NCBI GenBank assembly: GCA_027310825.1
Contig: DAIDAC010000006.1
Coordinates: 1-64,000, forward strand
Length of the DNA: 64,000 bases
From: Candidatus Micrarchaeaceae archaeon
Lineage (GTDB): Archaea; Micrarchaeota; Micrarchaeia; Micrarchaeales; Micrarchaeaceae
Reading direction: 5' to 3'
The notes beneath the pieces were generated by a model. It saw only the letters and a list, made by a program, of their open reading frames with translations, did not search any database and was not told the DNA's origin. Below are positions 50,788 through 58,700 of the stretch, one piece after another (position 1 is the stretch's first letter; each line of letters begins with the position of its first letter). A program made the position numbers and the translations under genes.

Positions 50788-51711
50788 TTACGGGGCGGTG
50801 TAACCGCTCTGCCACGAGCTGCTGTATGTCACGCTTACTGCATTGCCGTTGTATCCGTTTCCCGAGTAGTCCTGCGCGTTCCCGTTCAGAGGCCACCAGC
50901 CAACTATGTTCTGCGGCCGGATCGGGGCGCCGCCGATACCCTCCTGGTACAGTGCCAGGACTTCCGGAGCAGAAAGCGATGTATTGTATAGTTGCACGTT
51001 GGCGATGGAACCGTTGAAGGTGGTTGTGCAGCTCGTCTCAGAGCCGATGCATGTAGCTACGGCATAGCTGCCGCTGCTGCTGTTCACGAGGTTGAAGGGA
51101 CTGGTGGAAGCTCCTGTATTGTCCTGCACCCCGTCCAGGAAGATAGTTTTTGAGTTTGCGGCTAGGTTGTATTCGAATGTGGCAAAGTACCATGTATTGT
51201 CTCCCAAGAGGTCGGGACTGCCAAGATCATCACTATAGAAACCCATGTACAGAGTATCGCTCCTGACCACAAAATGTAACGCATTGTCAGTGACCGGGTT
51301 GGGGCAGGGGCCACCAGTGCACCCCTGGCCGAAAATCCCCAAGTCCAGCGTTGGCGACTCGGCAAAATCCGGGCTTTTAATCCATGCGGATATTGTAAAA
51401 CTACGGTCGTTGAGCGGTATATATTTTAGGTATATCTCGCTATTGATAGTGTTCGAGAATTTTCCCACAAACTCCGGCAGCATACCGTTGCACTCTCCAA
51501 CCAAAGAAGAACCGACTGCGGTCTTCTGCACCAGACATGAACCTGCCGTTGCATGGTTGCCTAAATTGCCTCCCGAGAATACACCGAGTTGGAAAAGTAC
51601 TGCAAGTACTACTGCAATGATTAGGATGGCCCAGCCATATGTCATCAAGTACTCCATTGCCGACTGCGACCTCAGAGTCTTGTGTGTGTGTGTTACCAGC
51701 AAAGCAACCAA
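50788..51711 (-). CDS. Pilin-LamG protein with TG repeat in its leader (tandem copy 1)
   Basis: A protein of about 307 residues: leader MVALLVTHTHKTLRS, motif QSAMEYLMTYGWA, helix to about 40, LamG-like body (NLVNSSSGSYA, TCIGSETSCTTTFNG) and tail IVGWWPLNGNAQDYSG. The start is uncertain: TTG 51711 has no SD. An upstream in-frame ATG at 51741, about 25 bases from a TATATAATC-like box, meets TAG at 51715-51717. The leader codons THTH are written by a (TG)6 run (51681-51692), so slippage would shift the frame. Sister of the gene at 52542-53473. Confidence 0.75.
   Translation of the reverse strand: MVALLVTHTHKTLRSQSAMEYLMTYGWAILIIAVVLAVLFQLGVFSGGNLGNHATAGSCLVQKTAVGSSLVGECNGMLPEFVGKFSNTINSEIYLKYIPLNDRSFTISAWIKSPDFAESPTLDLGIFGQGCTGGPCPNPVTDNALHFVVRSDTLYMGFYSDDLGSPDLLGDNTWYFATFEYNLAANSKTIFLDGVQDNTGASTSPFNLVNSSSGSYAVATCIGSETSCTTTFNGSIANVQLYNTSLSAPEVLALYQEGIGGAPIRPQNIVGWWPLNGNAQDYSGNGYNGNAVSVTYSSSWQSGYTAP
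51681..51693 (-). repeat. (TG)6 dinucleotide tract in a pilin leader
   Basis: Six TG units on the plus strand (AC on the coding strand) within the leader of the 50788-51711 pilin, followed by one extra T. Slippage by one unit would change the frame between start and pilin motif. Confidence 0.7.
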
Positions 51712-51810: not shown

Positions 51811-52179
51811 ATGCAATCAGAGGCTGAGGAGTGGATACTGGAGTCGGCAGACAATTTGGCTACTGCAAGGATATTATACCAAAACGAGCGATTTAAGGAT
51901 ACAGCATATTATTGCCATCAGGTAGTCGAGAAGGCGTTAAAAGCCGTCCAAATAAAGAAAGAGGGGAAGTTTGACAAGATACACGACCTTGTAAAACTTG
52001 CACAAAATGTCGGTGCTCAACGTGGTATAATACTCAACTGCGAGAAACTTACAAAGTACTATATACCGACCAAGTACCCAGTATCGAAGAGGGAAATCCC
52101 GACTGAAAAAGATGTAGAAGCATGTCTTTCAGAAGCGGAAGAGGTATTAGAATGGGCAAAGTCAATCCTGAAATTATAA
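51811..52179 (+). CDS. HEPN-domain protein (partner of a minimal nucleotidyltransferase)
   Basis: A 122-residue helical HEPN protein (ESADNLATARILYQNERFKD, then HQVVEKALKAVQIKKEG). The typical toxin motif RX4-6H is not seen: the only candidate is R-X8-H (RFKDTAYYCH), so RNase activity is doubtful. It overlaps the MNT gene by 28 bases, the usual HEPN-MNT order. ATG 51811 follows a TATA-like TAATATAG. Found between two duplicated pilins. Confidence 0.8.
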   Translation: MQSEAEEWILESADNLATARILYQNERFKDTAYYCHQVVEKALKAVQIKKEGKFDKIHDLVKLAQNVGAQRGIILNCEKLTKYYIPTKYPVSKREIPTEKDVEACLSEAEEVLEWAKSILKL

Positions 52180-52475
52180 AAACGCTGAAGTTGTTCAAAA
52201 GCAGAACTTCACGCAAGTATAATGTAGAGAAGATGATACTTTTTGGCTCTCAGGCCGATGGCACTGCAAGAGCAGACAGCGATATTGACCTGATAGTTGT
52301 AACCCGCAGAAAGAGCAAAAATCTAGTGGCAAAGCTAATCGACGAGTGGCATGTCAAACAGAGAATCGAATATCCTGTTGATTTCATAAATTACACAAAG
52401 GCCGACTTCGAAAGAGAATCGAAGCGGATTACGCTGGCAAAAGTTGCACTGCAAGAAGGAATTGAAATAGTATAG
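52152..52475 (+). CDS. Minimal nucleotidyltransferase (MNT) of a HEPN-MNT pair
   Basis: A 107-residue nucleotidyltransferase with GSQADGTARADSDIDL (residues about 31-46; GSx-DxD active site). In HEPN-MNT toxin-antitoxin pairs it AMPylates the HEPN partner and silences it. ATG 52152 has GAGGT seven bases upstream. The final codons GTA TAG use bases of the duplicated hppA segment, so its stop was made at the junction. The HEPN partner ends 28 bases into it. Confidence 0.83.
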   Translation: MGKVNPEIIKTLKLFKSRTSRKYNVEKMILFGSQADGTARADSDIDLIVVTRRKSKNLVAKLIDEWHVKQRIEYPVDFINYTKADFERESKRITLAKVALQEGIEIV

Positions 52476-52541: not shown

Positions 52542-53473
52542 TCACGGCGCCGTATATCCGCTCTGCCACGAGCTGCTGTATGTTACACCACTAGCGGCGC
52601 CATTATTGTTATTACCCGAGTAATCGTTGGCGTTCCCGTTGAGGGGCCACCACCCCACAAGGTTCTGCGGGCGTATCGGCGCTCCCCCAATCCCCTCAAG
52701 GTACAACGCCTGCAGCTCCGCTTGCGAAAGCGAAGTATTGTACAACTGAACGTTAGCCATATCTCCGGTGAAGTACCAGTGGTCGCACATGTCCTGGCCC
52801 ATCAGAATCGACTGCCCGCCGATGTTCGGGGCGGCTGCCCAAGCGGCTGACTGGTAATTGCTGTCCATCTGGAACGATATCGTGCTGGTAGCCGCAGAGT
52901 AACCTACGGCTATGAAGTGCCATTTGCCGTCATTGCGCGTCCAGCCGTTCGCGGGGCTCGACTGGTAATCGTTGCAGCAACCGTGGTAATCTATGGTGGT
53001 GCTGCTATCGTGGGAGTCGAGTCCGGCATAAAAAAGATGCGAAGTGCAGCCATAGGTGCTGGAGCCGGCAGCCAATGCAGCGATCGCGCTATTCGTTGGA
53101 TCGTACACCCACGCCGTCTCGGTCACGGAGGTTACCGAGTTTATCGGGAAGCTGGTGCCGCCGAAGCTGCCTGTGATGCTTGCGGCGCCGTTGAACACCG
53201 CGACGAACTGCGGCAGGAGGCCGTTGCACTGCCCCTCAAGAGACGCTCCAGCCACGCTCCTCTGCACCTGGCAAGATCCGGCCTGTGCATGAGGCTGGAA
53301 GTTGCCGCCTGAGAAGACACCCAGTTGGAACAGTATACCGAGTACCACGGCGATGATCAGTATCGCCCAGCCGTAGGTCATGAGGTATTCCATTGCGCTC
53401 TGCGACTTTACTCTCCGCTTACTGCAAAAATAGTACTCTCTCTCTCTCTCTCTCTCTTTGGAGCACTATCCAT
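52542..53473 (-). CDS. Pilin-LamG protein, start out of frame across an (AG)11 tract (phase-variable?)
   Basis: ATG 53473 has an SD GGAGGT six bases upstream (53480-53485) and begins MDSAPK then Arg/Glu alternating over the AG tract. As sequenced, this frame ends at TAA 53408. The pilin frame, MEYLMTYGWA (from 53393) preceded in frame by VKSQSA without any start codon, is off by one. Loss of one AG unit would join them into MDSAPKRERERE...KSQSAMEYL. The rest is a LamG-type pilin ending LVGWWPLNGNANDYSG. Annotated here over the intended span. A start at 53393 would lack the processing motif. Confidence 0.7.
53436..53457 (-). repeat. (AG)11 dinucleotide tract between SD/ATG and pilin frame
   Basis: Eleven CT units on the plus strand (AG on the coding strand). 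One unit fewer, or two more, places the SD-supported ATG at 53473 in frame with the pilin. Confidence 0.85.
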
Positions 53474-53479
53474 TACCTT

Positions 53480-53485
53480 ACCTCC
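53480..53485 (-). promoter_or_regulatory. Shine-Dalgarno deciding the pilin start
   Basis: GGAGGT on the minus strand, six bases before ATG 53473. A strong SD here, absent before any in-frame codon of the pilin, is the main reason for taking 53473 as the true start. Confidence 0.75.
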
Positions 53486-53654
53486 GACCGCCTTTGGCAT
53501 ACTTTAGAATGGGTAGATACGCTTTTAATGCTTTCCGACCTCTTATTCCAGCCTTATAGAATACTTGGTATCCCACCTCCCAGTCCCCGTCCTCACCACC
53601 GTGAAGATTCTCTCGCCCCTTATAGGATTGTGGGGTTAAACAAATAGCTACCAT

Positions 53655-54542
53655 CTACGGCGCGGCATACCCACTCTCCCACGAGCTGCTGTAGCCGACG
53701 CTTGTGGGCGCACCATTATTATTGTTTCCTGAATAATCATTCGGGTTTCCGTTAAGCGGCCACCATCCCACAATAGTATCTGTCCTTATCGGCGCGCCTC
53801 CGATGCCTTCCTGATAAAGAGCTAAGACCTCGTTTGCGTTGAGGCTGTTATTGTATATCTGTATGTTGGCCATCATTCCATTGAATGGGACCTGTACGTT
53901 AGGGCCTATCTTCAATGTTGCAACGCTGTTGTAAACTAATGCCTGCCCCGTCGGGGCTCCTCCTCCGATTGTTTCTTTGATGCCATCGTAATACTGGGTG
54001 ATGGCGCCGGATGTTTGGTTGTACGTTGCCACATAATTTACCCATTCGCCGGTTTGCCAACCGGCCGTCGGTCCATCAAATGAAATCGAATACCTTGTCG
54101 GCACGTCGAAAAGAAAATACACAGAAGTGCCGTATGTCTCAAAATCCCAGCCGACGCCCAGTGAATCCTCTTCATTTATAAAATCCATTTCGTTGTTAGT
54201 CGGCGGGTAAGAATTGAGGTTTAGCCACGCAGAAATCGTGATGCTGGAAGGCTGGAGCTTTGAACTAAGGGGCATCGCTATCTTGCTTGAGCTGCCACCG
54301 TTCCAGGCCCCGACAAACTCCGGAAGCTGCCCCTGGCATTCTCCGACCAACGATGAACCGACAGCAGTTTTCTGCACCTGACATGCACCTGCTTGCGCTC
54401 TTGGTGCAAAGTTCCCTCCAGAGAAAACCCCGAGCTGGAACAGCACCGCCAGAACAACAGCAATAATCAGTATTGCCCAGCCGTATGTCATCAAGTATTC
54501 CATCGCAGACTGCGCAGAACCCTTTCGCTGGCTTTTTGACAT
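53655..54542 (-). CDS. Pilin-LamG protein
   Basis: A 295-residue copy: leader MSKSQRKGSA, QSAMEYLMTYGWA, hydrophobic helix, GACQ and GEC cysteines, LamG-like body and tail IVGWWPLNGNPNDYSG. ATG 54542 is about 24 bases from the TTTTTATATC box (54562-54571), so this is a leaderless gene; the upstream frame is not used. No dinucleotide tract is present in this leader. Third member of a three-gene run on the minus strand. Confidence 0.85.
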   Translation of the reverse strand: MSKSQRKGSAQSAMEYLMTYGWAILIIAVVLAVLFQLGVFSGGNFAPRAQAGACQVQKTAVGSSLVGECQGQLPEFVGAWNGGSSSKIAMPLSSKLQPSSITISAWLNLNSYPPTNNEMDFINEEDSLGVGWDFETYGTSVYFLFDVPTRYSISFDGPTAGWQTGEWVNYVATYNQTSGAITQYYDGIKETIGGGAPTGQALVYNSVATLKIGPNVQVPFNGMMANIQIYNNSLNANEVLALYQEGIGGAPIRTDTIVGWWPLNGNPNDYSGNNNNGAPTSVGYSSSWESGYAAP

Positions 54543-54584
54543 GCTAAAGCTAGCAAAAAAAGATATAAAAACATGCACAAGCCG

Positions 54585-57647: not shown

Positions 57648-58700
57648 ATGTCGGTGGCCATGAACATATCTTCCCCAGACATATCCAACTTTTTCAATTA
57701 CGTACAGGCATTGTTCTCTCCATATCTGCAGGGCACAGCGCTAACTGAGATATCTGTTCTTATCGCGCTCATCATTTTCGCAATAGTTCTGTCGATAATA
57801 TTTTCGGTTTTTGCATACGTGTTCGGCTGGTTCGAGAGGAAGCTTATGGCGCGCGCACAATCGCGGCATGGTCCCACATACGTAGGGAAATGGGGGATCC
57901 TGCAGAATCTCGCCGACTTGGTCAAGCTGATTGCAAAGGAGAACATAATTCCTGACAACGCCGACAAGATTCTTTTCCAGACTGCGATACCTGCGCTTCT
58001 AGCTCTGTTCGTCTTCATGCTGGCGTTCATTCCGCTCACAGATGGATTCATCGGCATGCACACTGGAGTGTCTCTGTTAGTTGTATTCATGTTTCTCTCT
58101 CTCACTCCGCTCATTGTCTTCATAGCAGGTTGGAGCAGCGGGAACAAGTTCAGTTCGATCGCAGCACAGAGATCAGTTGTCATGATGTTAAGCTACGAGA
58201 TACCGATAGTCCTTGTCATAGCAGCAATCGCGATGATGACTAGCAGCTACAGCTTCCAGGCAATCGTCAATGCACAAAGCAGCTACTGGTACATCATGCT
58301 GATGCCCCTGGGCTTCGTCGTGTTCTTCATAGCTCTTCTCGGCGAGCTTGACAGGCCGCCGTTCGACTTGAGAGAAGCCGACAGCGAGCTCATAGCAGGC
58401 TGGCTTACCGACGTGAGCGCTCCGTATTACGGGCTTGTGCTCTTCCTCGATTATCTGAGGATGTTCGTCGGCGCACTTCTCATATCATTGCTGTTCCTGG
58501 GCGGATGGCTAGGCCCGTCTTTCCTTCCAGAGTTCGCGTGGCTGATGATAAAAGTGGTGGCCATATCGGTATTCGTGATATTCATAAGAGCGACAACGGT
58601 GCGCATGAGAATTGACAGGCTTCTGAGGCTTGGCTGGCTCTATCTCATGCCTCTGTCCGTCGTTAATTTATTAATTACTTTTGTATTATTCATCGGTTGA
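57648..58700 (+). CDS. nuoH: Complex I subunit NuoH
   Basis: A 350-residue, about eight-helix membrane protein that joins the membrane arm to the peripheral arm and forms the quinone entrance. Motifs: MARAQSRHGPTYVGKWGILQ, NLADLVKLIAKE, and GELDRPPFDLREADSEL (E-channel glutamates). First gene of nuoHIJKLMN. ATG 57648 or the ATG four codons later. Confidence 0.93.
   Translation: MSVAMNISSPDISNFFNYVQALFSPYLQGTALTEISVLIALIIFAIVLSIIFSVFAYVFGWFERKLMARAQSRHGPTYVGKWGILQNLADLVKLIAKENIIPDNADKILFQTAIPALLALFVFMLAFIPLTDGFIGMHTGVSLLVVFMFLSLTPLIVFIAGWSSGNKFSSIAAQRSVVMMLSYEIPIVLVIAAIAMMTSSYSFQAIVNAQSSYWYIMLMPLGFVVFFIALLGELDRPPFDLREADSELIAGWLTDVSAPYYGLVLFLDYLRMFVGALLISLLFLGGWLGPSFLPEFAWLMIKVVAISVFVIFIRATTVRMRIDRLLRLGWLYLMPLSVVNLLITFVLFIG

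Follow-up and report, generated by a model that had tools for sequence, protein, structure and literature searches.

The window, by which we mean the whole stretch of DNA analysed (64,000 nucleotides), carries on its minus strand a pilin-LamG frame (52542-53402; Q followed by SAMEYLMTYGWAILIIAVVL, 285 codons from the S plus stop) which has no start of its own. This frame gave a Laminin_G_3 match and was modelled as a helix plus beta sandwich. On the 5' side it is closed by a TAG at 53466-53468, and between this stop and SAMEYL neither ATG, GTG or TTG nor any ATA, ATT, ATC or CTG codon was found in the pilin frame. An (AG)11 tract (53436-53457, minus strand), located in the prepilin leader and setting its frame, sits between the full-length pilin-LamG frame and the start codons. 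The minus strand reads ATG CCA AAG GCG GTC GGA GGT AAG GTA ATG GAT AGT GCT CCA A(AG)11 TACT..., with its two ATG codons at 53500 and 53473, 27 nt apart and in one frame. A GGAGGT Shine-Dalgarno-like site (53480-53485, minus strand) precedes ATG 53473 by six bases. The frame from ATG 53473 encodes MDSAPKRERERESTIFAVSGE and stops at 53408; from the leaderless-type ATG 53500 the short leader ORF of the OFF state extends over 53408-53500 (minus strand; MPKAVGGKVMDSAPKRERERESTIFAVSGE, then stop). Leader and pilin frames join if 1+2n is divisible by 3, n being the number of AG units, i.e. at n=10 or 13, and the window gene with n=11 is OFF as assembled. The original prediction had placed the tract, the stop and the GGAGGT site exactly here, had noted the lack of ATG, GTG and TTG before MEYL, and had stated that one AG fewer or two more would fuse the frames; the sequence agreed on each point, the fusion being confirmed by arithmetic. 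None of 100 dinucleotide-shuffled versions of the window contained the tract, which is the only (AG) tract of at least 8 units in the 975 kb genome.

ATG 53473 had been proposed as the start supported by the Shine-Dalgarno-like site. While this site is present, ATG 53500 may be the real start as judged by promoter position, a candidate which had been overlooked. It lies 29 nt 3' of an AAAGC-ATTAAAAG box, and we infer a probable box A at 53522-53529 (minus strand; ATTAAAAG within AAAGCATTAAAAGCG, about 22-29 nt 5' of the ATG), at the position seen in 12 own-genome paralogs. Most of these 12 lined-up paralogs have an A+T-rich box about 22-34 nt 5' of their ATG. The spacing equals that of leaderless-looking paralogs, and the AAAGCATTAAAAG box of the window gene stands at the paralog-type distance from ATG 53500, not from ATG 53473. 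The choice between both codons leaves the ON/OFF logic unchanged, as they share a frame.

By its sequence, the product was identified as a type IV pilin. The gene meets the class III signal criteria with a basic leader, Q(+1) and E(+5) and a hydrophobic helix (KS, then QSAMEYLMTYGWAILII; helix 3-26), and the start of the mature protein has the archaeal type IV pilin form, followed by a Laminin_G_3 domain (PF13385, E=5.6e-7, 30.2 bits at a cut-off of 27.6). A structure model based on 38 sequences (mean pLDDT 72.5) showed a single helix at the N-terminus (3-26) plus a beta sandwich, with the carbohydrate-binding protein 4dqa and pentraxins as best Foldseek matches. All invariant residues of the 38-member alignment are present in the window pilin. 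Compared to its closest homolog (genome G013, 71% identity), dN/dS was about 0.10 with saturated dS; by these sequence comparisons, the window pilin is under purifying selection. The tract is not a conserved feature of this orthologous gene, as the homolog in G013, the nearest species, has a plain MRSQ leader without it. Nearly all pilin relatives in a wider contig search were labelled Candidatus Micrarchaeota. The own genome holds about 25 full-length family members (42 partial or full matches). One pilin paralog of the own genome (L046, G000:C13:46606-47442) contains an internal TAA. An A24 prepilin peptidase was not found in the own genome (a 92%-complete assembly); since 69 of 85 family genomes possess one, we read this absence as a gap or as divergence.

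The window gene is one of three pilin-LamG genes on the same strand in this part of the window. The third gene of the tandem (53655-54578, minus strand) has an in-frame ATG leader, MSKSQRKGSAQ before SAMEYL, without tract and served as an internal control. Between two of the pilin genes, at 51811-52475 on the plus strand, lies a HEPN and nucleotidyltransferase (MNT-like) pair, a toxin-antitoxin-like module. The other neighbour (50788-51711, minus strand), likewise missed in the original prediction as to its repeat, contains an (AC)6 tract in the leader (51682-51693, minus strand), which occurred in 0 of 100 window shuffles. Its only in-frame start is TTG (51711 or 51702). GTG 51715 (in AGCATAGTG), the codon found where the start usually lies, does not fit the frame with n=6 but would do so with n=7. 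As a TTG is in frame as assembled, the ON/OFF state of this gene is ambiguous. Dinucleotide tracts in own-genome pilin leaders were restricted to these two genes; the other paralogs listed have an in-frame ATG and a mostly short basic leader before the motif. In 460 kb of own-genome stretches used to measure the repeat background we counted 904 dinucleotide runs of at least 3 units, 53 of at least 4, 4 of at least 5 and 2 of at least 6. Both tracts of at least 6 units lie in leaders of neighbouring pilin genes. Homopolymers of at least 9 were absent from this 460 kb sample, leaving no extra homopolymer switches there. A (TC)5 run was seen at 58094 inside a long membrane-protein ORF (57648-58700), and L252 carries (CA)5.

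Leader tracts recurred in related genomes. Among 85 family genomes, 12 AC or AG tracts of at least 8 units were detected, 8 of them in pilin leaders, namely four AC tracts in G068 and AG tracts in G000, G078 and G080 (two). A ninth, at a contig end of G080 (G080:C46), has the same flank as the leader tracts, and the remaining ones are found in G008, G011 and G036. By a rough area estimate, the binomial probability of this excess in pilin leaders is about 4e-21. When the analysis was extended to the whole order (164 genomes), 14 genomes proved to have leader tracts of type (AC)n or (AG)n, with at least 5 units, before the QSAMEYLMTYG motif (AC in 9 of 164, AG in 8 of 164), with 0 hits for a reversed-pattern control in the same genomes. 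The wider contig search yielded further pilins with tract leaders; no viral contigs with the same leader-plus-tract patterns were found. Three individual loci deserve mention. About 74 nt 5' of SAMEYL, the pilin leader of L099 (JASHXR010000064.1) combines an (AC)10 tract with a C10 run, and the two may act as consecutive switches. In L180 (G036:C15:12349-12364) a glycosyltransferase-like gene has an (AG)8 tract in its 5' coding region; the frames on either side of the repeat are mismatched and the gene looks switched OFF. In L178 (G008:C1:485-500) an acetyltransferase-like (GNAT) gene has an (AG)8 tract, read as (CT)8, close to its 5' end, and its frame is broken at the tract.

Tract length was compared between paralogs (G080, G122, G068) and across species (G039/G122); the window gene itself was not part of this comparison. 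In G080 the leader CGGATTCCATGGCGCGCGA(AG)nACAAAACAA is present with n=6 (ON), n=10 (OFF) and n=12 (ON). A pair of G122 genes with 98% identity over 200 nt upstream and a common downstream leader has n=7 (OFF) and n=8 (ON), and differs also by a 4-nt AAGC indel. Behind the AC tract, L227 and L229 (G122:C3, G122:C27:48k) carry an AAGC/TAGC tetranucleotide repeat, one unit apart between the copies. In G068 n=5 is ON, while n=12, 13 and 15 are OFF by the shared GTG/ATG frame. For a leader common to two species (G039 and G122), lengths of n=11 and n=14 were both ON, the difference being exactly two codons. Overall, 12 unambiguous tract pilins were ON and 15 OFF, which is near the expectation for a freely drifting length. 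An in-frame ATG was present in 17 of 36 tract pilins versus 156 of 165 tract-less pilins (p=1e-10). We are aware that tract genes of one genome have common ancestry and that the counts are not independent; because the genes are related, this p-value is only a guide.

A coding constraint became visible between tract and motif. From the tract to QSAMEY, the pilin frame of 31 tract genes contained 1 stop in 534 codons, whereas 42 in 547 and 39 in 554 were counted for the other two frames (together 81 in 1,101). Each of the other two frames was closed by a stop in 29 of the 31 genes. The single stop in the pilin frame belongs to L099, the leader with the additional C10 run. The open pilin frame and the closed other frames imply translation of the leader whenever the frame fits, and a quick end at OFF lengths; such a stop bias is not expected if the tract were part of an untranslated region.

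Very probably, the window gene belongs to the simple-sequence contingency (phase-variable) genes and encodes a type IV pilin of the cell surface with a LamG/concanavalin-like head, switching within the population being inferred. The observations, i.e. the anatomy and frame logic of the locus, the recurrence of the tracts, the length differences between copies and the coding constraint, fulfil three of the requirements for a contingency locus: a 5' coding tract longer than expected by chance, a unit number that shifts the frame, and, in related genomes, near-identical copies that differ in length. The original prediction of a contingency gene gained strong comparative support from the tracts of 14 order genomes, the differing lengths on near-identical leaders and the mixed frame states. 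Strict phase variation, reversible and within one population, is an inference, with length differences seen only between paralogs and species. According to the proposed mechanism, translation from ATG 53500 (or 53473) would run through the AG tract, whose unit number is inferred to be altered by slipped-strand mispairing during replication. Every third length (n=10, 13 and so on) would couple the leader to the pilin frame and yield a prepilin with a long basic leader, MPKAVGGKVMDSAPK(RE)n YYFCSKRRVKS, before QSAMEYL; all other lengths would end at an early stop without pilin. A prepilin peptidase would then remove the leader. As the repeat is confined to this removable part, any ON length would give one and the same mature pilin. 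Slippage may be aided by a lack of MutS, again an inference: a MutS domain was absent from 85 of 85 family genomes (control matches in 11 of 14), and the archaeal polymerases PolB and PolD slip in vitro (PMC4134008). The rate of switching, the processing of the leader and the use of the switch, be it variable attachment to the host cell or escape from viruses, are likewise inferred.

The most serious objection is an assembly or sequencing error in the repeat, in which case the real repeat would fit the frame and the gene would be always ON. The tract length rests on a single assembly of this species, without read data, and the G080:C46 contig ending at its tract indicates that assemblers do break there. 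However, the tract of only 22 bp is far below short-read length, and in independent assemblies about half of the tract pilins are out of frame, compared to less than 6% of the tract-less pilins. Even with n=10 at this locus, the gene would remain a tract-borne contingency gene. The original prediction had regarded such an error as the main alternative. As tracts recur at the same place in 14 genomes, an error in one of them is unlikely to explain the whole pattern, although it cannot be excluded for the window locus; we consider this explanation very unlikely. Even less likely is a pseudogene that lost its start, with the tract as a sign of decay. The OFF state of the window gene as assembled and the simple leader of the orthologous gene in G013 would fit, yet the pilin body is intact by its invariant residues and low dN/dS, no stop closes the pilin frame of the leader up to the tract, as in 29 of 30 other tract leaders, and there are further tract pilins in the ON state. 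For the window copy alone, recent decay is not excluded. Neither an error in the tract nor a fresh loss of function, while not excludable for the window gene alone, explains the pattern of the whole family.

Some non-ATG start codons are in use among archaea, and repeats can slip. The pilin could accordingly be expressed despite its frame, if the ribosome or the RNA polymerase slips on the (AG) tract or if translation begins at an unusual start codon. Against this stand the lack of all seven codons searched for between the TAG and SAMEYL, and the variation of both tract length and unit (AG or AC) between genes, which is ill-suited to a fixed frameshift signal; we give this possibility less credence than decay. 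Least plausible of all is a silent donor cassette for gene conversion of the Neisseria pilS type. The pilin family does have conserved ends and a variable middle, and among tract paralogs of other species identity is mostly 80-100% over the N-terminal 105 nt and about 61-79% in the heads. In the own genome, by contrast, the conserved ends of the two neighbouring paralogs share only about 70% DNA identity with saturated synonymous sites, which leaves no room for recent conversion there. Near-identical blocks as in Neisseria pilE/pilS were lacking in this pair, and the silent-cassette model was rejected for the own genome.

For the preferred reading, a slippage-switched pilin gene, consequences arise at the level of the family. 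If some of the about 25 differing pilins switch independently of each other, the pilus coat would differ between cells, and the family probably generates mosaic coats. For ultra-small archaea of this kind, a life attached to other archaea is assumed. We predict that pilus coats vary from cell to cell, perhaps matching different hosts or escaping viruses. The tracts may have a further role. In a G122 gene (50k) an upstream half typical of the C10 class meets, at the tract, a downstream half typical of the C3/48k class, a G068 gene (22k) has a foreign upstream part joined at the tract, and G124:C5 and C62 have a common upstream part followed by either an (AC) or an (AG) tract. These three genomes point to recombination between paralogs in which the tracts served as joints; it is a lead, not a result. 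As a tentative idea, somewhat short of probable, we consider a Micrarchaeota "phasome" in which AC/AG tracts in cleaved pilin leaders act as slippage switches and as joints for recombining promoter-leader cassettes onto pilin bodies. Glycosyltransferase and acetyltransferase genes may be further targets.

Slippage-driven phase variation has so far been treated as a bacterial trait and is hardly described in archaea. The original prediction had called archaeal systems little described. Our literature search found bacterial slippage phase variation, a halovirus phase variation system and a homopolymer survey with 18 archaea, but no paper on slippage phase variation in Micrarchaeota or other DPANN archaea, subscription papers being outside its scope, which is not proof of novelty. 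We conclude that a slippage-type contingency gene family in DPANN archaea is real, while switching inside one population has not been demonstrated. The halovirus phiCh1 is said to switch by recombination (inversion). That viral recombination differs from the repeat slippage in a cellular gene proposed here. The variants of the phiCh1 adhesion protein nevertheless represent phase variation in archaea (Klein et al. 2012, cited in PMC8371274 and PMC9319562), and the likeness lies in a switched adhesion protein within the archaeal domain. A survey of homopolymer runs at 5' gene ends in prokaryotes, with 18 archaeal genomes among them, also proposed repeat-borne on/off regulation of archaeal coding genes; in contrast to our study it was statistical, dealt with poly(A)/poly(T) mostly of up to 8 bases and does not contain the word dinucleotide (PMC2831843). 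A 2025 review left the archaeal distribution of slippage phase variation to future work (PMC11868660). With EppA/PibD-processed archaeal type IV pilins, the window pilin shares the Q+1/E+5 motif, the basic leader, the single N-terminal helix and the arrangement of multiple pilin genes outside the assembly operon, often in tandem (PMC4371748, PMC4858521). It differs by its LamG head and, in the tract class, by leaders reaching about 40 residues, compared to a median of 8.5 if one counts as far as the S of SAMEYL. As in bacterial contingency loci, a short tandem repeat in the 5' coding region switches the frame of a surface product, with several such genes per genome. Unlike in those, the evidence comes without within-population data, the host belongs to the Micrarchaeota, many paralogous targets stem from a single pilin family, and the repeat lies wholly in a removable prepilin leader, so that all ON lengths would converge on one mature protein.
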